The position numbers and the translations under genes are program-made. The notes beneath the pieces were generated by a model, which worked only from the letters and a program-made list of their open reading frames with translations, was not told the origin of the DNA and did not search any database. Shown here one piece after another: positions 3,604 to 30,100 of a stretch of DNA of 37,674 nt (position 1 is the stretch's first letter; every line of letters starts with the position of its first letter). The stretch comes from Acholeplasmataceae bacterium (GTDB lineage: Bacteria; Bacillota_I; Bacilli_A; ML615J-28; CAG-698). The DNA is taken from positions 1 through 37,674 of the forward strand of contig DUOT01000172.1 in assembly GCA_012838705.1 (NCBI GenBank). Reading direction: 5' to 3'.

Positions 3604-3614
3604 GGGGTGAGTCT

Positions 3615-5731: not shown

Positions 5732-5760
5732 TAGTACTTTATAAATAAAGGAGGATGGAG

Positions 5761-6324: not shown

Positions 6325-6332
6325 AACGCTAA

Positions 6333-6357
6333 GGGGGCCCAGTCGGGCTCCCTCTTA
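6333..6357 (+). terminator. Hairpin GGGGGCCC-AGTC-GGGCTCCC followed by TCTT
   Basis: 8-bp stem with one G-T wobble, 4-nt loop, in intergenic gap after tube copy 1. Confidence 0.5.
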
Positions 6358-6374
6358 TGAAAGGATGTGAAGAA

Positions 6375-6932: not shown

Positions 6933-6939
6933 AATGCTC

Positions 6940-6967
6940 AAGGGGGCTCTTTTGAGCTCCCTTTTTT
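6940..6967 (+). terminator. Intrinsic terminator: AAGGGGGCTC-TTTT-GAGCTCCCTT + T-run
   Basis: 10-bp stem (one G-T wobble), tetraloop, T6 run, directly downstream of tube copy 2. Confidence 0.75.
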
Positions 6968-6987
6968 CATTATAAGGTGGTGCTCTA

Positions 6988-8375: not shown

Positions 8376-8406
8376 TTTATCACCCCATGTGGTTTTCTTA
8401 ATGCTT

Positions 8407-8415
8407 ATTATACCA
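8407..8415 (-). promoter_or_regulatory. Extended -10 promoter (TGGTATAAT) for the reverse-strand moron
   Basis: Reverse complement of attatacca at 8407-8415 is TGG-TATAAT, a perfect TGn extended -10, about 30 nt upstream of the GTG start. No good -35. Confidence 0.65.
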
Positions 8416-8489
8416 CAAAATAAACTATTTAACCAGAAAAAAGAGGGAAAAAGTAGCAAATATAGAAATATATAAAGGGGCTATTGTTT

Positions 8490-9686: not shown

Positions 9687-10136
9687 ATGGCTAAGAAAAA
9701 GATTGAAGAAGTAAAAGCGGAAGATATGATGCTTGAAGCTCAAGAAGAGCAATTGGAAGAAGAGTACAGCTTCGACAACATCGAAGACGAAGAAGGATAC
9801 GTCGACGAGGGTGATGGGCTCTTGTTCCCTGGTGGTCCAACCCTAGACCAAGTAGAAGAATGGAAATCTAGATTTACCAATATTTATGCTACAGAGTTTG
9901 AAGAAGACATTTTCATCTGGCGCCCGCTCACACGCATTGAATACAAAGAAGTTCTCAAGGTCAAGAATGCCGACGCTATGTATCGTGAAGAGCGCATCTG
10001 CGAAAAATGCGTACTCTGGCCTGAAAACTATAGCTTTGTTGCTATGAGCTCTGGTGGAGCTGGGCAACCAACCATTCTTTCTGAGCAGATTATGGAGAAA
10101 TCAGGATTTGTAGCTGCTGAAGCTACCAGATTATAG
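9687..10136 (+). CDS. Tail assembly chaperone-like protein 1
   Basis: 149 aa, acidic. EFEEDIFIWRPLTRIEYKEVLKVKNADAMYREERICEKCVLWPENYSF shared with next ORF. Located between tube and giant tail genes. Confidence 0.7.
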   Translation: MAKKKIEEVKAEDMMLEAQEEQLEEEYSFDNIEDEEGYVDEGDGLLFPGGPTLDQVEEWKSRFTNIYATEFEEDIFIWRPLTRIEYKEVLKVKNADAMYREERICEKCVLWPENYSFVAMSSGGAGQPTILSEQIMEKSGFVAAEATRL

Positions 10137-10156
10137 TTTCTTTAAGGGGTGACAGA

Positions 10157-10657
10157 ATGACACCCGAAAGATTACTAGAATTAAAACGAGAATGGGGCCA
10201 AATCTTCGAAGATGAAATTTTAGGTAAGATATTTATTTGGAGGCCTCTTTCTAGGCAAGAATATAAGGAAATTATTTCGCTTGATATAAGCACTGAAGAG
10301 CAAGAAGAATTAATCTGTCAAGCATGTATCTTAGAACCGAGCATTGAAGAGTTTAAGAGTTTTTCTGGCAAATATGGATTGGTTGCCACAACGCTTGCAG
10401 ATATGATTATTGGGACTTCATGCCTAGATAATGAATCAATCATGTCAAAACTAAGTGCATACAGGGCACAAGTTCAGCAGTTTGAGTCTCAGATGGACTT
10501 AGTTATCTTCGAAGGTTTTAGTGGTAGATACTCACTAGAGGAAATCAAGTCTTGGCCCATGGAAAAAGCAATCTCATACTTTGCTCAAGCTGAATGGATA
10601 CTAAAAGTTCTTCGTGGTGTCCCATTAGAAACAGAAGACTCAAATCCATTTGTTTAA
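10157..10657 (+). CDS. Tail assembly chaperone-like protein 2 (paralog of previous)
   Basis: 166 aa. IFEDEILGKIFIWRPLSRQEYKEIISLDISTEEQEELICQACILEPSIEEF parallels previous ORF; own SD AAGGGGTGA. Confidence 0.7.
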   Translation: MTPERLLELKREWGQIFEDEILGKIFIWRPLSRQEYKEIISLDISTEEQEELICQACILEPSIEEFKSFSGKYGLVATTLADMIIGTSCLDNESIMSKLSAYRAQVQQFESQMDLVIFEGFSGRYSLEEIKSWPMEKAISYFAQAEWILKVLRGVPLETEDSNPFV

Positions 10658-10672: not shown

Positions 10673-13600
10673 GTGGCTAAAAACAGATATTCGGATTATT
10701 TAGGCGGGGCTTCTTCCCGTTTTGTCCAAGAGGAATATAACGCCCAGGACGACCGCACATCCCCTGGAAAGGTGGTAGCTGGGGTTGCCCTGGGCGTTGT
10801 CGCTTTAGGGGCAGTTGCGTACTCAGGAGCACTAAGATCGCCTATACAGCAGATTTCTAAAAGACTGGCGTCTGCTGATCTCGGGCCATCTCGTGCAGTA
10901 ATTCAAGGATTGCGCAATTGGGCTAAAAATCCTTCTGATCTCAGGCATGGCGTAAACCGCATTTTATCTAGAGAATATCAAGAAGGGTTTTCTAGGCTTA
11001 GAAATATCCCTAGAGCTATCAGTGACGAAGTTGCTGCTGCAAGCTCAAGACTAAGCAAGACAACTGGTCGCCATCTCTTAGATAATATTCCATCTGAATT
11101 CGAAACTAGAATGGTAGGCCATCTAGCTGACCAAGAAAACATAGTTCAGATGGCTTCTGGTTACGCCAAAAGAAACTTTGCCACTAAAATCATTGATGGG
11201 ACAATGGCTACAAACAGGGCATACGACGAAGGAATGCGAGATGCCTTTAGAAGAATCTCTGGTGTTGTTAGAGAAATATCTCCAATAAGCATGAATAGGA
11301 TGTCCAGAGATCAGTGGTCAAGGTTGATGAAAGAAAGGCTTGGCGATAGCTTTAACCAAAGTGCCGTTGAAGAAGCGTGGAATCAGCTTAGTCGTTTAAA
11401 CATTCATCGCACCCAAAAACTTGGTGATCGTGTCCATAGTCAATTCATCAATAAAGAAGAAATTAAACGACTTGCCAGATTGAGGAAAAGCGGACGAGCT
11501 GGGATGGAAAGAACTATCCTAGAGGCTCGATTCAGGGCTGAAAGAGATTATTATAAGATGGTAAACCGCAACACCAAAATGTTGCGTGAAGAATTCCACA
11601 AGCAGATGATGGTTAACGCATCAAAGGATAAGCTTCTTCAGAAGGCAACTGGCTTTAGACAGGCCACGGTTGGAGACCTCCATGATGCTGGCCTACTAGG
11701 CAAGATCCTTATCCCCAAAAGAGGGAAGGGGCAAATGGAGGAGTTTAACCTAGGCGAGCTATTGGCTGATGCCAGAAGTAAGCGAGCCCAATCGCTACGC
11801 AAACTATCTGCTGGCACTGGAATATACGTAAATGATTCTGGTGAAATAGTCGATATGAGAAAGCTGACATCCGTACCTGGAGATGTTTTAGACTTTCTCA
11901 CTTATGAGACAAGAATACCTGTAGCTGGATTTAACCCGTTAAGGGTTATGCATGTGCATTCAAGAAGACAGACTGCACATATGCAACAATTCCGTTTCGG
12001 TACATTAAAATCTGTACAGCCATGGATTACCGAAGCAGCAAGTAAAGAACAAGCCAAACTTGGCTCGGACTTTATCCGTTTTGGAAAACATCTCTATAGC
12101 TTTGAGACAGGTGATATCCTTCGTAATGCAGATGGAGTAGTTGATACATGGTACGCAACTCATTCAAGAAGAGGCCAGCTTTCGACTATGACCACGAAAA
12201 TGGTCGGCGCCACAGCTAGAGAAAGAGTGCGTCCAGAAGGCTGGAGAGGAACCCTTCACGATATAGGGCAATTTTTAGATATTGGCTTTCAAGATGAAGA
12301 TTCCATTCTCCAGAAACTAGCATCCATTAAAAACAAAAGAAGCGATCCTAACTGGATTCCAAATAGAGCAAGGCTTATTACGGACTTAGATCAAACTCCC
12401 AACACTGCTGATTTCTATGAAAGCTTCGAATTCATTAGGAACGAAGCTAGGAGGAAATCTAAGCAATTCAGTTCAGATGCATGGGGCGTGCTTACTAGTA
12501 CTCCTGCATACCAAGAACTGTTTGACGGGAAAGTCCTTAAATTTGACACCCCAGAGGACATCGCAAGTAGTCTACAGACTGTTCTTAATACTGAAAGAAG
12601 ATCCAGAAGCATATATGAAAATGAACTGACAAGATATTGGAATGAATACGCTAACAACCCATCTATGTTTCTTCATTCAGTAGCTCATGATCCAGATAAT
12701 ATGCAAAGGCTAGAGACTATCACTAAGACTATCCAAAAAGAAGTGTTATCCAGAATAGAGGAACAAGCAGAACATCCCATTAACTTCCTGGATTTCATTG
12801 AGAACTCTGGATTGTACGGTAGTGACGCTAGAGAGGGTAAGCACACCGTTTTAAGTTTTATTTTGGATAATCTTGGCGAGTCTGTTGATAGAGAGAGATC
12901 TGATGATATTAACAGATTGATGAGTGCTTTGCGTTCTCGCACAGATGAAGGCGAGCAAGTCAGACAGGTTATTAACGAATTTGCCGAACATGTCTCTCCA
13001 TGGTATAGACCAGTAGAGCCCGAGACCTATCCCAAGTTTGAATATTTTAAATCAAGTTTTGATGAGGATATTATCAGCTCAGATGTTCTATGGATGCGTG
13101 GCAAAAGAAAGCTTCCTATTAAAGAAGCATGGGAATTAATTGCCGACATTAATGACCAAACAAAACGAGATGCCTTCTTTAAGGGAACTACATCATGGGC
13201 TAAACAATGGGTTGCTGGTCGTCACGATATGGGTAACGTGACAACCGCTACGTTCATCCCTTATTCTTATCTTGAACGTTTAAATACCGCAATCGCTCCA
13301 TCTGGCCTTGCTTTAAGCTCTAGGCATTTAGGTTCGGCTTTAGATTTAGCCAAAGGTTTTGGGTTAAATCGTTACGGTCTAGCCTATGCTGCGTTTGCCC
13401 TTGGTGGCGGAGGAATTTTAGGGTACGTCAACTGGGAAATAGGTCAACTCTTGGGCAAGACACCTACTGCAATGGCTGCCGATGTTGTTGCTGGAACACA
13501 CAAAGCTACAGCCGCCTTGAGGGATGCAACTGGAGTAACTAGCACATTTAAGTGGCTTAGAAGTGTAACTCCTGGAAGTGAGCTTTTAACAGAGATTCCA

Positions 13601-16600
13601 GGTGGTCAATTCCTCGACTTCACCCAATCATATGAGGATCTAGAAGAGTACTACGAACACGGACAAGATCCAGTTCGTAAAGGCAGATACTGGACGCTAG
13701 GTAACACCCCATTCCAGGGTGGTAGGGTTAAGTACTATAGACCCAACTGGTATCAAAGAGCTCAAGCCGACATAATGCATACTGATGTCATGTATGGTTC
13801 AGGACAAGAGCACTATAGGAGAACTCCGTTCCCGACACTTAGAAATCCTCTTGCGCCGATTTGGTATTTTGCAGACCCATACTACTATGACCGCAAACAC
13901 TATTATGATCGCCCATATCCTGTAACTGGCGGTCTTGCGGAACTAGAAGAAATTCCTATTGTTGGTTCTACGCTTAATGCCACGGTTGGTCAAATACTAA
14001 AGCCCACTAGGTACATGCACGAAGAGCAATGGGCTTCTAATACTGCCAAAGAAACGATTGCTAATATAAATGAATATGAAAAAGCAAGAGCCACAAATAA
14101 GATTCGTGGCACTATTACTCCATCTGGTAGAATTCGATTTGGCGATGCATGGCGAGGAACTCAAGGGTTATCCCCAGAGTTTGGCGATGTAATCTATGAA
14201 GAAGATGCCGATACCGAAATGCTAGTGGATGGAGCAGGCAGTGTTCCTCTTAGCACATCTCAGCCTGGTCAAGATATGAGCGGAGGAGCGTTTCCAAGAT
14301 TATTCTATAGGCCAAGATCGTCTGGTTCTGGCAGAGAAGCAGTTGCACAAATCAACGTAGCAACAAAAGAACGTGCGATGAGGCAACCGCCAGCAGACAT
14401 GATCCAAACAACGAGTCCTCAGTATGCCTTCAGAGAAGGTATTGCTGATATATACCAAATCGGTGGTATATATGGATTCGGAGCGAAAATGGCTTTCGGC
14501 GAGCCTTATATGGATAGGTCAGTCCTTGAAAACGCATACAGAATGCACTCTGCAAGCGATAGATTTTGGGATATGGAGCTTGGTGGGTGGCTGTTTGGTG
14601 CTAACCTATCCGAGATTACTCGTAGGTTTATACCGCCAGACAAAGGCGACTATTTTAACCCAATTCGCAATACCATGCCATCATGGATGCCTGGAAATAC
14701 CTACTTCAAGAACTTCCAGATTGGAGATCCATATTCCAAAGTTGAAAGCGGAGAATACAGACTACCTGGTGCTGGATACGAAGCCATTAATGATGTCGGT
14801 GGCGTAACAATGCGTCTAGAGGCGCAAATGCTCTCTAGATCCAGCAAAGAACTTATAAATTACTTCCTATTAAATGAGATGCCAGCAGAAGAATATGACG
14901 AGTTAAAATCCCGTGGTGATAACAGGATTAGAGCTCGAATCATGAGTAGCTGGGATCGCAAAAATATGCTTGCTGGCGACACAGAAAGAAAGATGACAAT
15001 CTATGACCGACAAACAAACGTAATCGGTCAGATTGATGCCATCATAAATACTCAATACGGCCCAGAAGCTATTCAGATTCAAACTGTTAGCGAAGATGAA
15101 TTTTACAGAATAGCGGAACAAGGGCATGCACACGCCAAGCATATTACCGAGCTTAACTTCATGCTTAAACCAGCAGGTGCTACTCGAGGCGGAATCCTGT
15201 ATGTCAATGAAGAGGATACCTATGAACAAGCATACTACAACTTTGATTATAACGATCAGCTATGGTACAGCAGTTATAGAAAAGTTGAAAAGGCAAGAGC
15301 TCGGATTAATAAAATGGTCAAGAAGGGTCAAATAAATCGCTTTGACCTTTATGATGATTTCCACAAGTTCAAGATACTTGCAGATATAGCTCCGTTCTCT
15401 GACGAGTATCGCTATTATAATTCTATTGTTTCAAAGAGCCAAAGGCTCACAGATGAAGAAAGAGAAGAAATTAAAAGGATACGTAAGCAAGTATCTGAAG
15501 TCAAGAAAAAGCATAGGCATTTTGATTATCAATTTGCAGATGCCAATATCGTACAGCGCCGTTTTGTAGTTAAGGATGTGCTAGACAAACATCGCTTTAC
15601 TGTTTATGGAAGACCAGGAGAAATCTTCACACTTGCTGGTGTAGACATTCCATCTTCTCAAACAGATCCAGTGGCTCAGGAAGCTAGGGAACGCATCGCA
15701 GAAACAATCGCACCAATGAGAATGGTTACTCTAGGTATCACAAATGACCCCGTTCACTTGCGAAATAAAGACACCTATCGAACAGTTGGTGCAGTTGTCT
15801 ACGAGTCAGACGGAAGCGTATTACAGCAATCTTTAATTAGATCTGGACTAGCAACAGAAGACGAAGACGACATATCCCCAGCAGGAATCCATGCCAGATT
15901 TAATGCGTTCGAAAGGCAGATTGGTGCTCTGTGGGAAAGATTCGCTCACGCAGACACTCCATTTCACACAAAATTCCTACAGGTCAGAAGTCCACTAGAG
16001 GACTATAAGCGCAGAGAAGTATTCGGAAAGAACTGGCAATCATGGGATGCTCCAGTTAAAAATTTTATTCGTCCGACATTAGAATCTTTCTCCGCCAAGA
16101 ATCCTCTTGTAGCTGGCTTCCTGGGTGGAATGCTTGGGGCGGCGTTTGGTGAACCATCTTCTCCAAGGGCAAAGCTTATCTTAGGAACAGTCGGAGCCTT
16201 AACTACTGCATCATTAAGTCTTGCACAGTCTTTGCAAGAAATACAATCAGAAGAAAGATGGATTCCTAAGAGGCGGGTACTGGAAAGAGAAATCAATGAA
16301 TACTTCGACATTCTTAACTTCATCAAATGGCACGGCCTCTACCAGCACGCCTTGGACATGGCTGAAGAAGCTGGAGAAGGCAACGTCAAAAAGCTATTTG
16401 AAGAGATAGACCAAGAAGGCAGAAAAAGAAGACGAGTAACCAAGAGCCAGGAGCGGCGGAAGCGAGAAATCGTATCCAGGCACCTAGAAGAGATCCCTGA
16501 AGAAGAGATGCATCAGGAGTTTGGACTAGACTATCTACTAGAAAGAATTCATAACTGGAGAGCTAGACGGGACAAGAGAGATCTAGGAAAGATTAACTGG

Positions 16601-17266
16601 CAACTTGGAATATTAAAAAGTCACAATGAAGAAATAGAGCTTGGCGTCTGGGGTGCAAAAGCATACGAGTACAAGCGTCGCATGGAGACCACTCTTTATG
16701 GCGCAGACATGTACAACGTCCAGGATGCCATAACCGCAATGCCATATAAGGAAAGAGCTTACGCTCGTGCGTTCCTTGAGAATGCAAGTGAGAAAGAGCG
16801 AGAAGAGGTTCTGGAGCTCGTTCCAAGAAATATGCGTAGATTCTTCCAGACTCAATGGGGTATGGAAGTTGACGAACGTCCCAAGCTGGATGAATACTTC
16901 GCAACAAGATTTCTCCCTGGTCCTGATTGGGAGGGCTGGAGACCAGATAAAGACCTAACCGACGTTAAGGTTAAGGTTATTCGCAGAGAAGGCGCAGAGA
17001 TGACAGAGTTTAATCTCTGGCCTGACGATGTCGCCAAAGCGGAGGCGAATAACGCACCAGCTCTGCCAATCTTCAACATTAACACTCAGGCGAGAAATGT
17101 GAGAAGAGTGTTAGAAGAAACACTAAGAGGCGCAGGTCTCAAAAATGTTTCTGTGGTTGTCATGCCGACAGCAGGAGACGGAATAAACATCGACTTTGAC
17201 TATGAGCAAGACAGACAAGAGGAGTTCAGAGCCTACTCCTTAAACAATATCAATGCTATATTTTAA
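10673..17266 (+). CDS. Giant tail/virion protein (2197 aa), likely tape-measure-position protein with hydrophobic segments and embedded degenerate nuclease-like folds
   Basis: GTG start with AAAGGAGG. Directly follows the chaperones. Hydrophobic segments VVAGVALGVVALGAVAYSGAL, YGLAYAAFALGGGGILGYVNW, LVAGFLGGMLGAAFG...LILGTVGALTTASLSL. PD-(D/E)XK-like and SNase-like regions (see findings). Confidence 0.7.
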   Translation: MAKNRYSDYLGGASSRFVQEEYNAQDDRTSPGKVVAGVALGVVALGAVAYSGALRSPIQQISKRLASADLGPSRAVIQGLRNWAKNPSDLRHGVNRILSREYQEGFSRLRNIPRAISDEVAAASSRLSKTTGRHLLDNIPSEFETRMVGHLADQENIVQMASGYAKRNFATKIIDGTMATNRAYDEGMRDAFRRISGVVREISPISMNRMSRDQWSRLMKERLGDSFNQSAVEEAWNQLSRLNIHRTQKLGDRVHSQFINKEEIKRLARLRKSGRAGMERTILEARFRAERDYYKMVNRNTKMLREEFHKQMMVNASKDKLLQKATGFRQATVGDLHDAGLLGKILIPKRGKGQMEEFNLGELLADARSKRAQSLRKLSAGTGIYVNDSGEIVDMRKLTSVPGDVLDFLTYETRIPVAGFNPLRVMHVHSRRQTAHMQQFRFGTLKSVQPWITEAASKEQAKLGSDFIRFGKHLYSFETGDILRNADGVVDTWYATHSRRGQLSTMTTKMVGATARERVRPEGWRGTLHDIGQFLDIGFQDEDSILQKLASIKNKRSDPNWIPNRARLITDLDQTPNTADFYESFEFIRNEARRKSKQFSSDAWGVLTSTPAYQELFDGKVLKFDTPEDIASSLQTVLNTERRSRSIYENELTRYWNEYANNPSMFLHSVAHDPDNMQRLETITKTIQKEVLSRIEEQAEHPINFLDFIENSGLYGSDAREGKHTVLSFILDNLGESVDRERSDDINRLMSALRSRTDEGEQVRQVINEFAEHVSPWYRPVEPETYPKFEYFKSSFDEDIISSDVLWMRGKRKLPIKEAWELIADINDQTKRDAFFKGTTSWAKQWVAGRHDMGNVTTATFIPYSYLERLNTAIAPSGLALSSRHLGSALDLAKGFGLNRYGLAYAAFALGGGGILGYVNWEIGQLLGKTPTAMAADVVAGTHKATAALRDATGVTSTFKWLRSVTPGSELLTEIPGGQFLDFTQSYEDLEEYYEHGQDPVRKGRYWTLGNTPFQGGRVKYYRPNWYQRAQADIMHTDVMYGSGQEHYRRTPFPTLRNPLAPIWYFADPYYYDRKHYYDRPYPVTGGLAELEEIPIVGSTLNATVGQILKPTRYMHEEQWASNTAKETIANINEYEKARATNKIRGTITPSGRIRFGDAWRGTQGLSPEFGDVIYEEDADTEMLVDGAGSVPLSTSQPGQDMSGGAFPRLFYRPRSSGSGREAVAQINVATKERAMRQPPADMIQTTSPQYAFREGIADIYQIGGIYGFGAKMAFGEPYMDRSVLENAYRMHSASDRFWDMELGGWLFGANLSEITRRFIPPDKGDYFNPIRNTMPSWMPGNTYFKNFQIGDPYSKVESGEYRLPGAGYEAINDVGGVTMRLEAQMLSRSSKELINYFLLNEMPAEEYDELKSRGDNRIRARIMSSWDRKNMLAGDTERKMTIYDRQTNVIGQIDAIINTQYGPEAIQIQTVSEDEFYRIAEQGHAHAKHITELNFMLKPAGATRGGILYVNEEDTYEQAYYNFDYNDQLWYSSYRKVEKARARINKMVKKGQINRFDLYDDFHKFKILADIAPFSDEYRYYNSIVSKSQRLTDEEREEIKRIRKQVSEVKKKHRHFDYQFADANIVQRRFVVKDVLDKHRFTVYGRPGEIFTLAGVDIPSSQTDPVAQEARERIAETIAPMRMVTLGITNDPVHLRNKDTYRTVGAVVYESDGSVLQQSLIRSGLATEDEDDISPAGIHARFNAFERQIGALWERFAHADTPFHTKFLQVRSPLEDYKRREVFGKNWQSWDAPVKNFIRPTLESFSAKNPLVAGFLGGMLGAAFGEPSSPRAKLILGTVGALTTASLSLAQSLQEIQSEERWIPKRRVLEREINEYFDILNFIKWHGLYQHALDMAEEAGEGNVKKLFEEIDQEGRKRRRVTKSQERRKREIVSRHLEEIPEEEMHQEFGLDYLLERIHNWRARRDKRDLGKINWQLGILKSHNEEIELGVWGAKAYEYKRRMETTLYGADMYNVQDAITAMPYKERAYARAFLENASEKEREEVLELVPRNMRRFFQTQWGMEVDERPKLDEYFATRFLPGPDWEGWRPDKDLTDVKVKVIRREGAEMTEFNLWPDDVAKAEANNAPALPIFNINTQARNVRRVLEETLRGAGLKNVSVVVMPTAGDGINIDFDYEQDRQEEFRAYSLNNINAIF

Positions 17267-17285: not shown

Positions 17286-20200
17286 ATGCCACAGAAGAAT
17301 TTCAAAAGCAACCCCAGCAGAACAGCTGCAGATAGAATAGAAGGCGCTGGCATAAAAAGATATTTACCAGGCGAACCAGTACTCTTGTCTCTAAGGCACA
17401 TACAGAGTCAAAAAACAGATCCTTCTGCCTACAAGAGAAAAGAGTTAACCAATCTTCAAAAAATATTGTTGAATGGGCCGAAGCATCCTTTAACATCGAC
17501 TGAGATTTCTGGATTCGTTACTGCTTCAACATACCACAAAACACCACAGCAAGCCGTGGAAACATTCGACAGTATTCTCAATGGAAACAAACAACTTGTG
17601 GCATGGGACACAGAAATATTAGGGCTAAATAAGTTCGATCCAAATGTGCATGGCGGATTGGACTTATTTATGCCTACTGAAATATCTCTTAGGGCTTACA
17701 GTCCTAAGCAGGGAAGGGGCAACTTGTTAAGCAAAACAAGCCCCTTCCAGCACCATTCATCTATAAGTGTTTTGGTAAAACCAACCGAAGAACTGCAGAA
17801 AAACTACAGAGCGCTAATTGAGAAGGTAAGACAAGGAAGAAGTTTGACGCAATCTGAAAGGCGTACTTTTGTTGACTTAATGCGCTACTCTCAAATAGAA
17901 GATCCAGCTTCCTTTTCTGGAGTGTTCGGTATCAATCTAAAGAACGTGCATTTGTTTAATACGGGCGCATCCTTCATCAAGAGGAAGAACGGTATATTTG
18001 TGAAGCACCATGGAATGTTCTCAGGCAAGGGCATTCATGACTCTCTGTTGAAACAAAAGGCTGGCATCAAAACACTTCAAAGCCTAATACCGCACGCCGA
18101 GAGTGGCTTAGAGTCTCTAATTGGGTTTGGCATGTCTACTGATCAAGTTCAGAATCTTGTTGATGGCTTCATAGCTCAACATCAGAACTCAGTTTTCGTC
18201 GGTATGAACCAATTGGGTTTCGACATACCAGTAATGCAACAGTACTACAAGAAGCTTGGCAAAAAATTCAATATGCCAGCCAACCAACTCGATTTCTACC
18301 ATTTAGCGAGCAGCCTTTACACAAACCCAGAGGATCTCCATACCGAGCTATTGGGGAAGCAGGTCTCAAGAATAGGAAGAAGAACAGAGATAAACTTCAC
18401 TCTAGAGTCCATCCTGGAAACGCTTGGCGTAAAAGAACAGCCACATAGCGCTTACGAAGACGCTGGTCTTCTGGTGAATGAAGCACTGAATAAAACATAT
18501 AAAACCTTAAAAAGGCGCATGGACAAAGACGTAGCGTTTAATCCGCTCTCTCTTGACCAACCACACATAGCGAGAAATACTCCGATCAAGAAAGGGGATA
18601 CGCTATTTGCGTTTAGAAGTTTCTACTCAAAGGATGACGAGCTATCTTTCGCCGTAGAAAGAGACATATTTGATGAAAACAAGTTGGTCCAAGTTTACGG
18701 AGATTATAAGGGTAATAGTAGGGCTTTCTACAAAGTTCAAGACATCTGGAAACAAACAGTAGACCAAGATGAAATGAAAGATATTTTTGGAGTTACTCTG
18801 CTCGATGAAGAAATTGGCAGAGAGCTTCGTATAGCCGCAGAAAGTCCTGAACTTCTCGCTGCCAAAATCCAAAGTTTCGCTGTAACCCAGGATGTCTATG
18901 GCAAGGAGTCAAGACAAGTTCTTGTTGAGGCCGTAGCAAACGACAGAGCTAGACGACTCTATGAACGAATGTTTGAGTTTAGGACTAGCCCCAAGCAACA
19001 AAGCAGAGGAATAAGTCTAGCTAGAAACCTATATTCTATTGCAAGCGAGCTAGAAGACGGATACACTCAGCAAGATTTAATCAACGCATTCAAATCACGC
19101 AACATTAACTCTCAAGCAACCCTAAGAGACTTCCAGACTCTATTCCCTAGACTTAAATCAGAAGCTGAAGTAATGCTTAGTGCGATTGGAAAAATAGACG
19201 AAGCCGTAGAAACACAGGGCAATAGGATTAACGCTGACGCTGCATGGTTGGCTTTTTACAATAGACTTCCAGAGCACGTTGAGTCCATTGAGAGACTTAA
19301 TTGGAACAACAAGGGAGTTTATGTAAGAAACGCCCTGTATGATGGAACAACTTTGATCAATCTCCAAAATATAGACACAGCCAAGGCTTCTCTCTTCGGT
19401 GTTATTGATAATAACATCGGCAACAAGTTTATCTCAAAAGCATATCAAGACTCAGCTAGGGAGCAATACCTATCCAGAGAGATAATTGATGATCTGATTG
19501 AGAGAGAAATCCTGAGCTACTCTGACGCTAAAAGGATATTGGAACAAGATGGCATCGGAAACAAAATATCTAAGTTGATATCAGTTCTCTATGAAAAGCC
19601 AGAAGCCGATATGCTCCCAGCAGTAGAAGTGGAAAGTATGAGGGCTAGAGCCAACTTCAATCTTTCCGACATCGGCGAAAGTTTCATATATCAAGCTATT
19701 GAAGAATCTATTGATGAAGTAAGGAATGTAATGGCTATGCCGAGAGCGGAAGCTGACATTTCTATTCAATTGCTTGAGAAAATGAGAGAGATGGATATTT
19801 ACCAGAAAGATGAGCAAAGGCAAGCTATAGCCGAATTTGCATCTAAAATATATCAAGACTTGACTGGTAAGGGAGTTCAAGTCGATTTCGTCAAGCGTGT
19901 TCTCCCTGGAGACCAAACAGCTCTCCAACTAGTTATGTATTCCAACAAGAATCATGCAAGTGTGGCTCGTGCATTACTTGAAGGTAAACACACTGGTGTT
20001 GCAGCGACGTGGCAACTTCCAACATTTGACGAGAGTGGCAATATCGTTTTTGGAAAGCAAGCAAAGCTTAGACAGCACTTCTTGAGATATAGTAAAGAGG
20101 GGCCATTAGAGCGTGTTGGCATTCTAGATATGCTTTATGATCAATTTTCTTATTCTTATGGCATAGAGGGTATTGCCAGAGAAATTCGTGAAGGCAATAT

Positions 20201-23200
20201 TGAAGAAGCTCACAGGCTTATTAGCCGCAGAACTAATGACGCAATCAAAAGGCTTGGTGGTTCCACCAAATACATTAGAAGCTCTGAAAGAGATTATGCT
20301 GATGTTTCAAAATATGGACGGACTCTCTCTGATGTGAATAAAGAGCGACATCTTATTATTGCCGAACTTGCCAAACAAGAGTATGGCAGAGAGTGGGGAG
20401 ATCTGGGGATTATCCAAAAAGAAGACTTCATGCGTCGCAAACTCCCTGAAATCCTTCAGAAGAGTGGCATGGATATTGGGTACATCAATGCGCACTCAAT
20501 TAAGTCTGATCATATTATGGCTGGTAAAATTGCAGTTCACGACATTAGAAAATGGTCTGCATTTGGGACATACGGCGCAACAACTCGTGACAACATAGTT
20601 CAGTTTTTAAACTACGTACCAGTCAGTGAGGAAGCCTCAGTAGCAATAGTTAAGAGTGGTGCGAAAGGTTTAGTTCCAGGCTCGTTTTCTAGAACCGCAT
20701 CTGGTATAGCTGCAGAGATGCAAACAACCAAAAACCACACTACTGGTATTTCTGCAATAGGTGTTATAGCCAACGACCAAGACTTGGAAACACTTAGAAA
20801 AATGGCTATCGAGAAAGCCAGGCGTGATGGCGCTGACGATGTGGTTAGAGAGCTAGAGAGTTTAGCTCTAACTAGACCAAGAACTTACGAGAACTCAATA
20901 GTTTTTAGACAGAGCTTTATTGATAATTTTGAAGTGACTCAATCTAAAAACTATCAATTTGCTGTCGTAGATGCCACAGAGGAGTTCATTGCCATTGCTG
21001 ATAGATTCAGAGCTGGAGAAGCAATATCTATTGATGATCCTAAGTTTACCTACGCAAGATTCCTTCAAGGCGAGGACGACGAAGTATTAAGGCGGTTTGA
21101 CCTCCTTAAAAAGGGTGGCAAAATAGACGTCGTAGATATTCAGCAAGAGAACGGGATATTTAATGTAACCGTTACATCCAAGAGGAAGGCTAGCATTGCT
21201 GATAAGTTTGCCGTCGAAAGCGAGAAGGGAACTGGTGGTTCTATCATCAGCGATATGGCGGCAAACTATATGTTTGGCGAAGACGTTCAGTATGCTTACT
21301 GGACGAACATGATAAAACACAGAGACTTCAATGCATATCTAAAGGGTATGTGGAACTACGCCGCTTTAGAATCTCTAGCTGAGGGTAGAGAAGAAGAATT
21401 CGCAAGAGCCACAAAAAAATACTTTGGCTTCACTCCAGAGAAAAAAGTAGCATGGCATGGTGGCGTGTATTACGAGGTACCAGACGTAATATATAACAAA
21501 GGTGAGAACGCCATCGCTGACATGATGAATCTCTATAAAGAGATGGGATACAGTGAAGGCATCTGGCTAGGCGAAGGTGACATGAGAGTATACCTAAGAC
21601 GAGAGATGAACGAGGTCAGGCTCATGAATGTAAACACCGAACTCAGGTCAGCCAACGTAAGAGGTCACGGCCAAGGTATAAAATTTGGCATGCGTGAATG
21701 GCAAGCGCTTGAAAGGCGAGGTTTAGCATACAAGGATCCAGTATTAAGAACCATGTATGATCGTGGTGGGGCAAGCAACCTAACCGAAATAGGCAGATGG
21801 CTCCAAGATGGGCTAGACTCAGACCCACAGAGAAAAGAGTATCTCGCCCAAGCAAGAGGATTTGTTAAAACGCTCGACTCAGTGTTTGGAGAGGTAGATG
21901 ATTTAGCAGAATCACAGTTCATGACAATATCAGACTTTAAACCGCTTTCAAGGCGAACTGGTCTTTTTACTGACGTAGATATAGCTGGAACAGTATTTGA
22001 TCAAAGAAGGTTTTTCAAGAAAGCAACAGGCGATATTGTTCAAGATGGGTTTTATCTAGACCTAGGTACAGATATTACCATAGACATGGGCAAAGGCAAA
22101 TTCAAAACCATTGATAAGCTATGGATCGGCCCTCAAAAACTTGGAATGACTGAAGACAATCTCTATGTCATGAGTATGGACAAGAGAAAACTAGCAGACC
22201 TTTTAGACACAGTTGCGGAATTCCATGCGCTTTATGATATGCCAGATGCCCTAGATGATCAGGTAGTTAAAGATAGCGCACAGCAACTCAAATCCAAAAT
22301 GTCTACTCAGATCCGTGACTGGCTGGATGAAGCCGCTTATGAGCTCACAGACTCCAAGAGCTCTACGTTCGAGCGAGTTCTCGGCGGAAGAATGCCCACA
22401 TCTTTAATGAGTAGATTACAGATAGCATCTCCTCTAGCATACACGGATGGCACTCTATCTTATGATGATCTAGCCACTATATTTGTCTCCAGAGACCGAA
22501 TGGCAGAAGTCTTTGGAGAAAAAACTTTAACCAGTAGAATCAAACTAGATGGAGGAGGAACGACTACTCTTGAAGAATATTTATTAACAGAGGGTATTGA
22601 GGCTTACGGAGAGCGCTTTCCGCTCATTCACCAAAAGGGACTAACCTCAGTTAATATAAAGATTTCCAATGAATTAGAAGGCAATGCTGCTATAATTTCC
22701 CCATCTCTAGCTGAGTTCATGGATGGTGACATGGACGGCGACATCCTTGGTAAGGCAATAGCATGGTTGCAAGACATGAACCCCCTAGAGTCAAGTAGTG
22801 TGGCTAGCAGAAAAAGATTCTGGGCAACTCAAGAAGAGCTAAAAAAAGCCAGGATAGCTCAAATATTCGGAGATGAAGAACTTATAACTCAAGGCCTTGG
22901 AGATCTTCAGTACGATACTCATGCCCACATAATGGACAGACTTCTAGATAAAGAGACTGGTGTTTTCGCTGCAGGCAAATACAGCCGAGAAAAAGCATTC
23001 TCTGAGGCCCTCATTCAAGAAGGAGTCACTAATCTAGCTGATGATGCGCTCAACGATAGTGCAACACTTTCTGCCAAAATAACAAGACAATCCATTGGTC
23101 GTCTATCAAATATATCGGCAAAGATAAGCTCTATTGCACAGGACATCTACAAAGGAGACTTTGATAGATATGGCAATGAAGAGAGCTATTTGAAATTCCT

Positions 23201-24188
23201 ACAGATTGAAGAGTTCGGAAGAGTACTAGAGCAAAACGTTGGTTTCTCATCTAAGCACTTTACTGAGGGCTCTTCCTTACTGGCAATCGAAACACTGGTT
23301 CACCAATTAAGTTCATCTGAAGATGCCGACAGGGACATTTTGCTTGACACTCTAAGGATTCTAGATATAGACAGTAGCAAAATTAAAGTCCGAATGGCAA
23401 GAGATCTAGACAGCCCTGCATGGGCTATGGAAGAAATAGTCGATACATTTGTTGAGATGAAGTCAATGATAGGCAGACATTGGAATGACCTTCAACTAAA
23501 AGTTGGTCTTTCTGGATTAAGAACTGCGCCAGAAGCCTATGAAGCTCTTACTAGCTCTGGTGGAATTGTCGACTCAAAGATGGTTAGCTTCTTAGAAAAG
23601 ATCGATATGCTTCAGGAGGCTGGCTATTACGTTGATCGTAGTAAAAGGCCAAAGCTTGGTGTTCCTCAGACATTTACCGACTTGCTTGAAAGTGGACACA
23701 CACAAGTAGGCGGAGCGACACGAGAAGCAATTAGTGAGGCAACAGAGCAAGCAACATCTCAGCTAAGTAGACTTGGTGACGCTGTAGGCGAAACCATAGA
23801 AGATATAAGCACTCAAATGAGTGCACAAAAGGGTCTAAAAACTGGACTTGCTGTTATGGGTGGTATGCTCGCTATCGGGCTGGCGCTAAGAGTGATGAAT
23901 CCTAGAGATTCGGATGTCATTCCCGACGAACCCCCGCCCCCAGTAACAACTCATAACTTAGGTCCAAGAAGCGCCTACGTAGAAGAAGATTCTCCGCAAA
24001 CACGTGGACTCAAAGTTAATATTAGAGCGACTGGTACTGCTGGAGGACATGAAGCAGCTAGCTATGTAGATCAGGCTATGAATAACGGAATGCCTTTTAC
24101 TGTAAGAACACATGTAAACGTAACAGATAACACTCAAAAATTCAGTCCACAATTCCTGCAAAACATGTTTGCAGAGAGCCTGAGATAG
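17286..24188 (+). CDS. Giant virion protein (2300 aa): N-terminal DEDDh exonuclease domain + two-barrel RNA polymerase-like core (putative virion RNA polymerase)
   Basis: DEDDh: D108xE (VAWDTE), N308xxxFD313 (GMNQLGFD), H387xAxxD392 (HSAYEDA). Beta-like barrel: TYENSIVFRQSF...VTVTSKRKASIADK(1307)FAVESEK(1314)G. Beta-prime-like barrel: RFPLIHQKGLTSVNIKISNELEGNAAIISPSLAEFMDGDMDGD with DMDGD at 1815-1819. C-terminal hydrophobic helix GLAVMGGMLAIGLAL. Confidence 0.8.
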   Translation: MPQKNFKSNPSRTAADRIEGAGIKRYLPGEPVLLSLRHIQSQKTDPSAYKRKELTNLQKILLNGPKHPLTSTEISGFVTASTYHKTPQQAVETFDSILNGNKQLVAWDTEILGLNKFDPNVHGGLDLFMPTEISLRAYSPKQGRGNLLSKTSPFQHHSSISVLVKPTEELQKNYRALIEKVRQGRSLTQSERRTFVDLMRYSQIEDPASFSGVFGINLKNVHLFNTGASFIKRKNGIFVKHHGMFSGKGIHDSLLKQKAGIKTLQSLIPHAESGLESLIGFGMSTDQVQNLVDGFIAQHQNSVFVGMNQLGFDIPVMQQYYKKLGKKFNMPANQLDFYHLASSLYTNPEDLHTELLGKQVSRIGRRTEINFTLESILETLGVKEQPHSAYEDAGLLVNEALNKTYKTLKRRMDKDVAFNPLSLDQPHIARNTPIKKGDTLFAFRSFYSKDDELSFAVERDIFDENKLVQVYGDYKGNSRAFYKVQDIWKQTVDQDEMKDIFGVTLLDEEIGRELRIAAESPELLAAKIQSFAVTQDVYGKESRQVLVEAVANDRARRLYERMFEFRTSPKQQSRGISLARNLYSIASELEDGYTQQDLINAFKSRNINSQATLRDFQTLFPRLKSEAEVMLSAIGKIDEAVETQGNRINADAAWLAFYNRLPEHVESIERLNWNNKGVYVRNALYDGTTLINLQNIDTAKASLFGVIDNNIGNKFISKAYQDSAREQYLSREIIDDLIEREILSYSDAKRILEQDGIGNKISKLISVLYEKPEADMLPAVEVESMRARANFNLSDIGESFIYQAIEESIDEVRNVMAMPRAEADISIQLLEKMREMDIYQKDEQRQAIAEFASKIYQDLTGKGVQVDFVKRVLPGDQTALQLVMYSNKNHASVARALLEGKHTGVAATWQLPTFDESGNIVFGKQAKLRQHFLRYSKEGPLERVGILDMLYDQFSYSYGIEGIAREIREGNIEEAHRLISRRTNDAIKRLGGSTKYIRSSERDYADVSKYGRTLSDVNKERHLIIAELAKQEYGREWGDLGIIQKEDFMRRKLPEILQKSGMDIGYINAHSIKSDHIMAGKIAVHDIRKWSAFGTYGATTRDNIVQFLNYVPVSEEASVAIVKSGAKGLVPGSFSRTASGIAAEMQTTKNHTTGISAIGVIANDQDLETLRKMAIEKARRDGADDVVRELESLALTRPRTYENSIVFRQSFIDNFEVTQSKNYQFAVVDATEEFIAIADRFRAGEAISIDDPKFTYARFLQGEDDEVLRRFDLLKKGGKIDVVDIQQENGIFNVTVTSKRKASIADKFAVESEKGTGGSIISDMAANYMFGEDVQYAYWTNMIKHRDFNAYLKGMWNYAALESLAEGREEEFARATKKYFGFTPEKKVAWHGGVYYEVPDVIYNKGENAIADMMNLYKEMGYSEGIWLGEGDMRVYLRREMNEVRLMNVNTELRSANVRGHGQGIKFGMREWQALERRGLAYKDPVLRTMYDRGGASNLTEIGRWLQDGLDSDPQRKEYLAQARGFVKTLDSVFGEVDDLAESQFMTISDFKPLSRRTGLFTDVDIAGTVFDQRRFFKKATGDIVQDGFYLDLGTDITIDMGKGKFKTIDKLWIGPQKLGMTEDNLYVMSMDKRKLADLLDTVAEFHALYDMPDALDDQVVKDSAQQLKSKMSTQIRDWLDEAAYELTDSKSSTFERVLGGRMPTSLMSRLQIASPLAYTDGTLSYDDLATIFVSRDRMAEVFGEKTLTSRIKLDGGGTTTLEEYLLTEGIEAYGERFPLIHQKGLTSVNIKISNELEGNAAIISPSLAEFMDGDMDGDILGKAIAWLQDMNPLESSSVASRKRFWATQEELKKARIAQIFGDEELITQGLGDLQYDTHAHIMDRLLDKETGVFAAGKYSREKAFSEALIQEGVTNLADDALNDSATLSAKITRQSIGRLSNISAKISSIAQDIYKGDFDRYGNEESYLKFLQIEEFGRVLEQNVGFSSKHFTEGSSLLAIETLVHQLSSSEDADRDILLDTLRILDIDSSKIKVRMARDLDSPAWAMEEIVDTFVEMKSMIGRHWNDLQLKVGLSGLRTAPEAYEALTSSGGIVDSKMVSFLEKIDMLQEAGYYVDRSKRPKLGVPQTFTDLLESGHTQVGGATREAISEATEQATSQLSRLGDAVGETIEDISTQMSAQKGLKTGLAVMGGMLAIGLALRVMNPRDSDVIPDEPPPPVTTHNLGPRSAYVEEDSPQTRGLKVNIRATGTAGGHEAASYVDQAMNNGMPFTVRTHVNVTDNTQKFSPQFLQNMFAESLR

Positions 24189-24198
24189 GAGGTAGCTC

Positions 24199-27100
24199 AT
24201 GAATAAAAGAGAAGGATTTGTAGAGAAGTTTACCTTCTATAAAAAACATGAAAACGACAGTATCCTCATACACGAGAGCATAGTTATTGCTCTCGTGGAG
24301 GATAGACAAATTAACAACAGGATAGAGATTAAAAGTGAGAAGTGGACGGAAATCTTCGACAAAGACAACAGAGAAGGCATAGGCATAATAACCTATAAAG
24401 GCACTCCCGACGAGGTAACTGAAGGCGATTATGTCATCTGTACATTTTCAAGGGACGATAAACTTGTATCGGTAGAAAAGGGTGTGGGCTCTGGCTCAGA
24501 CATAACAGACATTGACTTCAGTCAAGGTAATCCGTTTTCTGAGTTCCTAGAGAGCGAATCCGAGTATACCAGAAGCGTAAAAGACTATCAGGTTAAAATA
24601 GGCAATTCTACATTTATCATTCCTCCACTTGAGATTGATGTTTCAACACAGTCTACGATAAACAGGGTTCCCGCTTTAAGGGCTAACGGCTCGGTAAAGT
24701 CTCAAACTGGACACTCAAACGTCAGGGTTGAAATGAATTTATACTTTAGCAATGTTGACCAAATAAATGACCCAGACAATGGACTAAGAGCTTTAATCGC
24801 TCAGTTTAAAAGAACTCCGTTTCTCCCTGTAGAAAGTAAGTACCTCAATGACATCCACAACGTCTACGCAGTAACCCTCGCTAACCTCACTATCAACACA
24901 GTCCCTGGTTTTCCAAACAATCTAATGGCAAAGCTCATTTGCTATAAGTTTAATCACACCCCTTATGTTTCCACAGAACCATTCTTTGCCAATCTCATTG
25001 ACTGGCCTCTGTTTAACTGGTACTACAAAAAAGACTTGATTTACCAGTACGACGAAAACGGTAAACCTATTCCACAAGCCCATGGAAGATTAAAGGCAAT
25101 CCCTTCCTCTGGAATGACCAACGACTTCACATTCAAGTATATCCCACTAAAAGAACTAACAGAATTCAGAGATAAGACACATGCGTTATCTAAGACCCAG
25201 GCTGCCAAAGCTTCTATTGGTGTGCACTCTAGCTACTACATGGATGACTTAGTTACTATGATGCAGGTCAAACAAGCGATCGAGGCCATCGAAAGCAATG
25301 AAGAGGTAAACAAGCTAAAAGAAGATCTGGTGAAAGCGAAGGGCGCCTGGAAAGAGGGGCTCTTTACTATTGAGAATAAGTACAAAAAATACCTAGAGAT
25401 AGCAAATAGTATCCTAGGCGACGTTGTTGGATTGCCTACTAGAATAAAGCTTTTGGAAAACACGAGCATATGGCCGTACACCGCAAAAATGAAATATGAA
25501 TCGCCTTCTGGTTTTAATTGGACGCCAAAGACCACTGACGATGGATTTGGTACTGAAGGGTATATCTTCGAAATTCCTATTAAGGGTCATTTGTCTGCAA
25601 CTAATTTACCTGGATGGACTCCATTAGAACGTGAGGACGAGAAATATAAGCCCTATATAAATGATGATGGAGTATCTCTAGGATACGTCAGATTTATCAT
25701 CAAAAGCGCAGACGAAATCAAAATATATAGCAAAGACGAAGACCTGACAACCGCAATTCAGACTAGCAACCCAAGGCTTACTCAGTTACTGTACAACATG
25801 CATGTTAATGCATTTTCAGATGAAAACGCAATAGATGCGCAAGGCGACGTATTGGCTGCGAACGAGCTTATTGCTGAGGATTACTTTGCCACGAAGCTTC
25901 TGGAGTGGGATATAACACACCCAGATAAACTGCATCTAACGAATGCTATGGCTGCATACGAAAACCTAGTAAGCGATCTACAACTTCAGGCAATGGATGC
26001 TCCTACACATCAATTCCTGGGAAGTCAAGACATATTCATTAAACTGGATATACGCACAGACAGCGAAGAAAACGTACAAGACCTTAAAGATCTATTCTCT
26101 TATTCGCAGGTCGTTGCTCGTGACTTTGCTGACTACGTAAAAGCTGGCTTTATCAAAATCGACCACGATCTAGCCAACTTAATGGGTGTTAAGTATGTTT
26201 TGATCGACCAGATTAACGTAAGAACAGTTCCCAATCTGCCAGGAGTGTATGACATTGAAATCATCATGATCGATTTCGACGTCATGCAACGCAGAATCGA
26301 AAGAACTGGCGGAATCATAGGAACCGCAGACTCGACAATGAGATACCTCCAGATTGGTAGTATGGATGAGAACAGCGCCAATGAACCACTAAAGGAACTC
26401 ATTCGACCTCAGAACCACAATGAGTCTGTAGAGTACATGCATCAGGCCAATGATGGTCGCAGAAGTGCAGATGAGCTGAGAAGGGATATTTATATAGCTC
26501 ACGATGGAGGCAAGCGTTCTCAGTACAGATACATCTCTATCAACAACATGTTTAAGTATTTTGAGCTGTATCCAGATCTTGAGCTTCCAACATGGGAAGA
26601 GCTGTCTCGAGTTAAGCTGACTCTTCCAAGCGGAGAAGAGCAAAATGCTACAGAAAGAATACGCTGGGTTCGAGTCGAAGACGACGGAACACTAAGGCTT
26701 GCGACATGGAACCCCAAAATGTCAGATGATACACCCAATGGTGGTATTTATGTCGATCCAGACTTCTATTTTAAACCGAGTATCCCAATATCTGCTTCAT
26801 TGCAGAGAAAGCTAAAAACAAGAGATCAAGTTCAAATGAGCTTTGTCGACGTAGCTGGAAATTGGGAGCACTTGCCCTACGGTGGCGATTACTTGGGCCC
26901 AGTAGAGATTCAGATTGAAGGCGTCGAAGAACCAAGTGTTACACTTGAGGATCTTGACATAGACGCCCTACATGTGAACCCTGGCGACAGTGGAAAGCAT
27001 TTCGAGATAACAGAAGGATACGAAATTCCTGATGGTAGGGGTTTGGTGGATACCATCGACAAGGCACTTAGAGAACACAATCCAAGCTACGACACCGAAG

Positions 27101-30100
27101 AAGAAATCGAAAAAGCTATTCGGCTATGCACAGATAAAGACAAGAGACTAGAAGTATTTCCTCCGCTAGAAGAAGTTGTTAGGTATTTCCAACCGAAGGG
27201 ATATATCTCTCAAGAAGAGATCCGAAAAAGGATGACAGAGCTAATTCATAGTGAAATAGGCGCGGTCGCCACACAACCGATATTTGCGGATCCTCCTGAA
27301 ATAGTGCATGGCTACGCAATTAAGAGCGGGCTTTCACTTAACGTAAATATAGCCAGAGCGTTGTTTGATTATGAATCCAATACTACTCAGCTCTATCCAA
27401 TGGATGGCATTAAAGTAATTAACCACGTAGAAAAGTCAGTTATCGGTCAGCCAGTTCAGGCATATACCAGATGGGATGACCAATGGCATCGCTCGTTTGG
27501 TATAGGACAAATTAACCTAGGTGCTCACTGGACCAAAGGCGCAAAAGATACTAGCCACATAAGAAGAAAAGACGGCAGAGGTTACGAACCTATAGATCCT
27601 TGGCGAATCGTATATGACTACCAATACAATATCAGGTATTCATTGCAATACCTAAAGAAAAAGAGAGACTTTCTCTACAACAATCACTACAACGAAGTAG
27701 TAGATCTGCTAAATCACCTCATCAAGTATGCAGGATACCCTCTGCTCCGCAGTCTTCCTCCTGTACGCCAAAACCGCTCCTCAAACAAGCAATTCGACGA
27801 CTACAGAAAAACACTCCATGACTTCTTCTGGAGGCTAGCAGCAGTAGCCTATGAGGGATTTAAAATGAGCGACATTGTTAAATCCTTCAAGAGTGGCAAA
27901 GGCGATCCTATAAAAAGATACGATGCGCTATTTAGTGCTTCGTCTGGAAGGATCGTCAAGTACCAGGCCGAACAAGAGCGTAGAGAACAATCAGCAAATA
28001 TTTCAGTAAAATACGGACCAATAAAGCATCTCGAACAAGAAGAATACAAAAGAAGTTTCGAGTACCAGGTGCTTCAGCCAATTGATGACGACGATCATTT
28101 CTATGATATTCGTGCAGTCTTTGGCCCAAGGCCGCCAACAGAAGAAGAATCACTAGAGGGAAGCTGGTACGACTACATCAACACAGACTGTTCTGGCAGG
28201 ATGGTCAAAGCATTCCCTACGTACCATATCTGCTTGATAGATGAGGGTCGAAAAATTAGATGGTGGAAGTTATGGGATAACTTCTACGACATGAGTGCTG
28301 TAGTTGATCTTTCTATACACAAGAGTAGAAAGAATGCCGCAGACACTTGTATGATTACTATGTCCAACGTCTATGGTGGGGTAGGAAACCTTCATAGTAG
28401 GGGCTCTCAATCCCACATCCCAATGATTAAGAAAAGCTTTTGGGAGGTAGTCCTGCACACTAAACCCAGCGACTTGCATTTAGAGTTACGAGACCAACTG
28501 GAGCCAAGATTAATGCTTTCTGCTGGTTCAAGAATATCAGTTAGACTCGGATATGGCTCTAATGCTGCGAAGATGCCAGTAATGTTCAACGGAACAATCA
28601 CTGAGTTTGAGCCTGGAGATATGGTAGAAATCATAGCTCAAGGAGATGGTATAGAGTTAACTAACATTCTTCCGTTTAGCAAGAAGAGCTCTGTTAATGG
28701 CTTCCTAAAATTCGGAGCGGAGCCAAGAGATCTTTTGCTTGGATTAATGACGACTCACTCAGCTATTCAAAAAGCCATACGAGGAATAACCAGAGGTTAC
28801 TTTGGAAGGCAAGAAGATTCATCTGGTGTAATCCACTTTGGAAGTGTAGACCACACCAAAGGCGTATGGTATTTAGCAGAAGAAATCGGAGAAAACATCT
28901 ATCCAGCTAACTTCAAGGGAGAGCCGTACCAATATGACCATCTAATCAATCCATTTGCATGGCACTCCAAAGGTGACGAGCAAAATATCACGATTGATGT
29001 CTATAATAAGACAATTTGGGACGTTGCTCAGACCTGCGCTATGGCTATGCCGAACTATATAGCAACAGTGCTACCTGTTGGATTTAGGTCAACACTTTTC
29101 TATGGAATGGCGCATTGGGGTTATGTCTATGATTGGGAAATAGAAGATCTAGGTTTTGATATTGAGCCTGGAATTAGAAAGATAAGAAAACCACTTCAAC
29201 AGTGGCACATCTACTCTAGTGTCTCTGATATTATAGACAACTCAATCAAAGCAACCAGCCGAGATATGTATACAAATGTAATTGGCACGTATCAGGCTGG
29301 AACTTCAAATATATTGGGCATGATTTCAGCGCTATGGGGTGCGGAAACATCTGGCAATCATGAAGCAAGTATAACAGCTTATGCAGATAAGGATATTTAT
29401 CCGCAATTCCAAAGAACCACACAGATATACACAGGGATTAGTTCCGAAGCAACAGACGTTCTAACGAAAGCAGTCAACTGGGTTCCAATAGTTGGACTAT
29501 CCAGAACCAGAATATCAGAAGCATTAGCTTTTGCTGTTGCTCAAAGTGCTGTTCGTGACTATCTGAAAGACATGTATCAAGGTGAACTTATAGTCTTGGG
29601 CGATCCGTCTGTTAAGCCCTACGACGCTGTGTATCTGTGGGACAAATATACTGAGATGTTTGGTATCTTTGAAGTAAAAGAGGTCACTCACCACTTGTCT
29701 TTAGAGACTGGATTTATCACAAGTATAGTTCCTGACTGTACTGTCTCAGTCGCTGACCCCAACAGAAATAAGTTGTGGGGATGGCAAAGCTCCCTGGCAG
29801 CTGCTGTTATAGTAGAAATAATCTTTCTATTTTTCAAAACCAGCACCGCTAAAATAATGTCCAAGGGCCTAGAAGAAGCAGGAACTAGCGCAACTGCAAA
29901 ACTTACAGGGTTGCAAGAAAAACTTGCAGCTACAGAAGTTGCAGGAGCACTTGGAAAGCTAGCTGGGTGGGGCAGTGCACTCACTGGACTTGGAATTAGT
30001 CTTGCTTCTCTTTTGGGCGCTGCCAGTTCAGGTTTACTTGTAGCTCCACCAGTAGCGAGTTTTGTCTTGGGGGTTGTGGTTCTAGCAATCACAATCCAGT

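Follow-up and report, generated by a model that had tools for sequence, protein, structure and literature searches.

A virion-borne, single-chain two-barrel RNA polymerase (RNAP) is known from the crAss-like phage phi14:2, in which it is gp66 (PDB 6VR4) and belongs to a podovirus transcription block. The experimental precedent for such an enzyme in a tail protein is gp96 of Thermus phage P23-45, an active RNAP that was discovered by its motifs and is fused to the tape measure (PMC10770324). P23-45 has the non-contractile tail of a siphovirus, and the RNAP forms the N-terminal part of its 5002-aa tape measure protein, which also carries a metallopeptidase. The RNAPs of the jumbo phages phiKZ and AR9 are split over several subunits. 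YonO-like RNAPs, which are single-chain two-barrel enzymes, occur in the large Bacillus phage 0305phi8-36 (orf99) and in the large phage c-st (PMC7824862, PMC2147016). A survey of 224 jumbo phages found that only two outside the phiKZ group encode RNAPs, one of them 0305phi8-36 (PMC7824862). We found no earlier description of the tail RNAP family reported here in the open-licence literature; one may exist elsewhere.

The window, that is the whole stretch of DNA that was analysed (37,674 nucleotides), is one entire contig (C153) of a 1.64-Mb metagenome-assembled genome in 175 contigs. Its gene content reads as a phage tail cluster, with the following features:

Positions 2503-3603: one of two sheath-type ORFs.
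Positions 4223-5731, plus strand: tail sheath of a contractile tail (phrog_16991, E 1.6e-90).
Positions 5755-7506: three related tube-type ORFs in a row.
Positions 9687-10657: two small ORFs in the chaperone position.
Positions 10673-17266, plus strand: protein of 2197 aa in the tape-measure position, after the two small chaperone-position ORFs; the order is identical in Bacillus phage KLEB27-3 and Acinetobacter phage ME3.
Positions 17286-24188, plus strand: gene of the putative exonuclease-RNAP tail protein, an open frame of 2300 aa homologous over its length to KLEB27-3 gp034.
Positions 24199-31140, plus strand: giant baseplate/hub protein of 2313 aa, 31-32% identical to KLEB27-3 gp035 and to CDS0032 of Moorella phage MTATph1.

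The genes follow one another as sheath, tubes, two chaperone-position genes, tape-measure-like gene, 2300-aa gene and baseplate gene, and this order bears out the tail-module context that the initial annotation had proposed for the 2300-aa protein. KLEB27-3 shares this order, and so does ME3, whose protein is more divergent and whose gene at the place equivalent to 24199-31140, ME3_37, is annotated as baseplate hub. Baseplate wedge genes are also present in the cluster. KLEB27-3 shows the same multiplication of sheath-type (2503-5731) and tube-type (5755-7506) ORFs. Two other genes lie within the cluster: a lone minus-strand gene amid the plus-strand genes (7494-8459), with a signal-like N-terminus and WD40-like PD40 repeats (E 1.2e-11), and a plus-strand gene (8484-9665) in which a Staphylococcal-nuclease-like domain (PF00565, E 2.4e-10) is fused to an apparent tube-type domain. 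A weak SNase signal (E 0.016) was also observed in the tape-measure-position protein. The tail gene layout of 0305phi8-36, whose presumed tape measure is orf146, resembles that of the window, but its orf99, a member of the RNAi RdRP-type family, is encoded away from the tail cluster, whereas the 2300-aa protein is encoded in the tail module (PMC2147016).

Single-sequence searches of Pfam, PDB and PHROG with the 2300-aa protein returned nothing useful and did not match RNAP significantly, and pattern-based searches of viral and genome contigs revealed no direct relatives of the RNAP region. The database searches gave a single clear relative, KLEB27-3 gp034, with 22.9% identity over residues 80-637 (E 8e-11). 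It can be aligned along its whole length, which places its RYPTINQ...LKADYDGDF opposite RFPLIHQ...FMDGDMDGDIL of the window. Further relatives appeared only once the query was switched to the adjacent baseplate gene. The aligned downstream baseplate proteins of the window, KLEB27-3 and MTATph1 yielded 36 viral and 5 genome loci, and a second alignment yielded 43 viral loci, the two sets overlapping. The giant ORF just upstream of the baseplate gene carries DxDGD in most of these loci, and alignment identified further full-length homologues in L011, L018-L020, L042, L044, L051-L054, L058 and L059. It was these relatives, found through the neighboring gene, that settled the fold of the 2300-aa protein.

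The 49 non-redundant candidate ORFs occupy equivalent genomic positions, and 40 of them contain the pattern R.P(32-44)D.D[GSTQ]D. All other ORFs of the loci (293,504 aa) gave a single match, which is the same protein in an overlapping locus, and shuffled candidates gave about 0.15 matches per set of 49. Occurrence of the motif in the candidate ORFs is more than chance. Most motif-bearing loci are on phage contigs of roughly 50-260 kb. Three relatives lie on contigs of 194,705, 206,307 and 197,999 bases in isolate assemblies of Oceanobacillus, Paenibacillus and Alicyclobacillus (L042, L044 and L045, respectively), which suggests whole resident or contaminating phages. A viral contig (IMGVR_UViG_3300002163_000009, L004:9001-9999) shares 99% identity with the window across the first part of the protein. 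A weak Rpb1_2 match on another contig (C161) belongs to a coiled-coil protein and was taken as chance.

Loss of the enzyme was considered for the loci without DxDGD and set aside, as six of them (L008, L010, L013, L022, L039 and L065) have DxDSD or DxDTD in the same place, at equal spacing from R-x-P. In ME3, the protein at the same genomic place (ME3_36, L096:33172-37983) has REP...DHDQD instead of DxDGD and probably represents a divergent member from a cultured phage. MTATph1 has the exonuclease part (E 2.7e-12), which is followed by IS21-type genes and then by a C-terminal piece only, the RNAP part being missing; the IS21-type istA/istB genes occupy the place expected for the RNAP (L003:13487-20843). 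Two further loci show the exonuclease signal only. Thus, the RNAP part can be lost, or arose as a module, and the relatives at the same place in which it is not detectable indicate that it is not essential in every such phage.

The initial annotation had read the 2300-aa protein as a two-barrel RNAP from two motif blocks. Both lie at the residues that it named, K1307 and K1314 in the first (TYENSIVFRQSFIDNFEV ... SKRKASIADKFAVESEKGTGGSIISDM) and D1815/D1817/D1819 in the second (RFPLIHQKGL...FMDGDMDGDIL, with DMDGD encoded at 22728-22742). The alignments, searches and models place these blocks among the following features:

Positions 20493-23525, plus strand: predicted single-chain two-barrel RNAP region, residues ~1070-2080 (AlphaFold (AF2) models of residues 1035-2135 and of the L020 homologue; top Foldseek matches are RNAPs).
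Positions 20871-20960, plus strand: segment resembling beta NFEDA, residues 1196-1225 (TYENSIVF; YEQQ in relatives), from the alignment.
Positions 21021-21245, plus strand: probable beta-type barrel (DPBB-B), residues 1246-1320, with K1307/E1313/K1314/T1316 (strand-rich in the L020 model; invariant in alignment A8).
Positions 22599-22763, plus strand: beta'-type barrel (DPBB-A), residues 1772-1826, with R1777-x-P1779 and D1815-x-D1817-G-D1819 (invariance in 37 sequences; profile; PF00623).
Positions 23058-23165, plus strand: putative bridge-helix-like segment, residues 1925-1960 (AKI..QSIGRLSN..AKISSIAQ), a long helix after DPBB-A in the L020 model, with G1938 invariant.
Positions 23205-23270, plus strand: conserved block Q1983...S-K1990-H, a possible trigger-loop region (Q1983 and K1990 invariant, 19/19).
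Positions 23841-23897, plus strand: hydrophobic, tape-measure-like helix, residues 2186-2204 (hydropathy peak).
Positions 24105-24185, plus strand: conserved C-terminal tail (..DNTQ..), with D2281 and N2282 invariant; probable baseplate/hub anchor.

The R, the P and the three D of R-x-P...DxDxD are invariant in the 37 aligned members. In the first block, K1307, E1313, K1314 and T1316 are invariant in A8, an alignment of 14 sequences, and K1314 is replaced by R in the KLEB27-3 group. The spacing of 7 between K1307 and K1314 is confirmed. Of the lysines that the initial annotation had stressed in this block, K1307 is conserved, whereas K1299 of KRK is absent from the relatives and was rejected as the first catalytic lysine. 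The counterpart of K1307-K1314 in E. coli beta is K1065-R-R-I-Q-P-G-D-K1073, and the K-x(6)-K arrangement with an acidic residue before the second K fits beta K1065...D-K1073 with one residue less. The likeness of DPBB-B to beta K-R-R-I-Q-P-G-D-K-M was judged by eye.

We then performed profile and fold searches with the RNAP region, which gave RNAP matches for the family profiles and for both models. A 72-column DPBB-A profile built from 37 members matches RNAP largest subunits, among them the Pol V largest subunit (E 4e-6), as well as the phiKZ nvRNAP (8e-6), and all 60 PDB chains among the matches listed are RNAP subunits. The phiKZ chain, 7ogp_A, ranks first or second among the PDB sequence matches of the family profiles. 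With an earlier profile, 7/7 matches were RNAP beta'/RPB1. PF00623 is matched by 10 of the 37 members (4/18 in the earlier member set). In an hhalign control, profile A9 aligned at DxDGD with the host rpoC (74.6% probability) and exactly at DFDGD of P23-45 gp96 (20.1%), while six other, unrelated window proteins reached at most 3%.

The AF2 model of window residues 1035-2135 is of low confidence (pLDDT 59), and its best 50 listed Foldseek matches in the PDB are RNAPs, including the AR9 nvRNAP. In the viral library, its best matches are a 'minor tail protein', an unnamed protein and an uncharacterised ME3 protein, presumably ME3_36, followed mostly by RNAP subunits and unnamed proteins; a poxvirus beta-type subunit is a weak match (E 8.6e-4), and crAss-like proteins are only weak. 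The model of the L020 homologue, made with 14 sequences, has a pLDDT of 81.7 and a pTM of 0.79, and the 50 PDB matches listed for it are RNAP chains. One chain, 9g0a chain A, whose record is described by its influenza complex, was counted as Pol II Rpb1 from its length and its grouping with an RNAP subunit in the profile search. The key residues checked are identical between L020 and the window except for N873 of L020, which is S1944 in the window. The Foldseek alignments are good over only ~240-300 residues, mainly in the beta' half. The beta half is less firmly shown, as it rests on conservation and motifs, predicted strands and one weak viral fold match. Profile searches, fold searches with two models and conservation together support the assignment, made in the initial annotation, of the 2300-aa protein as a putative single-chain two-barrel RNAP.

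The protein shares with P23-45 gp96 the apparent placement of a single-chain two-barrel RNAP within a giant tail protein, the presence of hydrophobic segments, and R-x-P followed by DxDGD (DFDGD in gp96). In contrast to P23-45, the RNAP region is located here in the C-terminal half of a separate protein encoded after the tape-measure-like gene, it is accompanied by a DEDDh exonuclease, and the tail has a contractile sheath. No significant full-length sequence relation to gp96 was detected with hhalign. A single-chain two-barrel RNAP is likewise the feature shared with phi14:2 gp66, and hhalign revealed no sequence link to three large structural proteins of phi14:2 (gp076-078). The phiKZ and AR9 enzymes differ in their several subunits, whereas here both predicted barrels are in one chain with the exonuclease. 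By sequence or architecture, the 2300-aa protein does not belong to the P23-45 gp96 or crAss-like gp66 families; it most likely represents a separate, widespread and exonuclease-fused lineage that is analogous to gp96.

Neither the exonuclease nor the breadth of the family was part of the initial annotation. The domain is as follows:

Positions 17589-18479, plus strand: DEDDh 3'-5' exonuclease domain, residues 102-398, with ExoI D108/E110, ExoII N308/D313 and ExoIII H387/D392.

Residues 102-398 contain D-x-E, N...FD and H-x-A-x-x-D (of the H-x-x-x-x-D type) in that order, the motifs and order that place it in the DEDDh class. Each of the 18 relatives whose sequences reach D108, E110, D313, H387 and D392 retains all five. 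One homologue (L018) scores above the Pfam cut-offs for RNase_T and RNase_H_2, and in the PDB profile A7 detects chains of PolB exonuclease domains, of DnaQ, of ExoI and of DEDDh proteins (E 5e-6). A loose exonuclease pattern occurs in 29 of 49 members, compared with 5.6 in shuffles. All five catalytic residues and the ExoI-III order are common to this domain and the DnaQ/RNase T exonucleases; the difference is its fusion here to an RNAP in a virion-type protein.

We propose that the 2300-aa protein is a virion exonuclease-RNAP that is carried in the tail, accompanies the DNA into the cell and serves there for the earliest phage transcription, a reading to which we give a probability of roughly 0.8. 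Its domains would be arranged as DEDDh exonuclease, long linker, lysine barrel, DxDGD barrel and tape-measure-like C-terminus. Within the virion it would occupy the tail tube, with the tape-measure-like protein on one side and the baseplate protein on the other; after its passage into the cell together with the DNA, the injected RNAP would transcribe the first genes from the entering end, before the host RNAP is redirected. Computation supports both folds (RNAP and exonuclease), the conservation of the active-site residues and the place of the gene in the tail cluster; packaging, injection, transcription activity, promoter use and the substrate of the exonuclease are inferred. The position in the tail cluster and the deposited label of KLEB27-3 gp034, 'structural protein', point indirectly to packaging and delivery. 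In most family members a Gly/Ala-rich hydrophobic helix precedes the C-terminus by ~115 aa, and this helix and the D-N end after it are reminiscent of tape measure proteins, which suggests a location in the tail tube. Two sigma factors are encoded by KLEB27-3, and the 202.8 of its 216.7 kb that were examined contain no further DxDGD RNAP, which fits a virion RNAP acting early and a redirected host RNAP acting later.

The same C-terminus bears on whether the RNAP might instead be made in the infected cell and left unpackaged, its gene residing in the tail cluster without encoding a tail protein. We consider this improbable, given the fused tape-measure-like end, a gene that always lies between the tape-measure-like and baseplate genes, and a homologue labelled as structural. 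That a two-barrel polymerase shares its chain with a 3'-5' exonuclease, and that both active sites are conserved, also raises the idea of an enzyme that synthesizes DNA or primers instead of transcripts and is proofread by its DEDDh domain, comparable to archaeal PolD and to DnaQ-equipped polymerases; PolD is an example of a two-barrel enzyme that makes DNA (PMC4996933, PMC7281927). However, all PDB sequence and fold matches listed are RNAP subunits, and a DNA polymerase III alpha and primases are encoded by KLEB27-3 itself. To our knowledge, the injected two-barrel enzymes of phages are RNAPs, which also counts against DNA or primer synthesis, and we regard that reading as very improbable.

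A protein that derives from an RNAP but has lost catalysis or become largely structural, serving as tape measure or entry channel, would agree with the tape-measure-like position, the hydrophobic helix and the existence of relatives without an RNAP part. Nevertheless, R1777, P1779, D1815, D1817, D1819, K1307, Q1983 and K1990, as well as the residues of the exonuclease, stay the same even where overall identity drops to 15-20%, and we give this explanation little credence. Equally slight is the prospect that the RNAP works mainly as a motor for drawing the genome into the cell, transcription being a side effect, since, despite its placement at the tail-baseplate junction and the proposal from P23-45 that transcription is coupled to entry (PMC10770324), RNAP-driven entry was judged too slow to account by itself for the delivery of a 218-kb genome (PMC2147016).

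Under the preferred reading of a tail-packed exonuclease-RNAP, the exonuclease might act on the transcript as it is being made, or on nucleic acid of the host where the phage DNA enters. That the fused DEDDh domain works with the injected RNAP, to proofread, trim or recycle its own transcripts, across this contractile-tailed lineage is a tentative and on balance unlikely suggestion. We found built-in exonuclease editing of this kind described for no RNAP. If true, it would be a built-in editing activity of an RNAP, present throughout a lineage of large contractile-tailed phages.

The finding of an RNAP, as read here, in a large tail-cluster protein at 40 of 49 non-redundant loci contrasts with the survey of 224 jumbo phages (PMC7824862). 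The RNAP was missed by annotation because its sequence similarity is confined to ~70 residues. The exonuclease-RNAP fusion would be a new architecture, and the idea is directly testable, as Bacillus phage KLEB27-3 is a cultured phage with a homologue. If the enzyme is active, many phages would bring their own polymerase through a contractile tail, which would explain early gene expression before the host RNAP is redirected.
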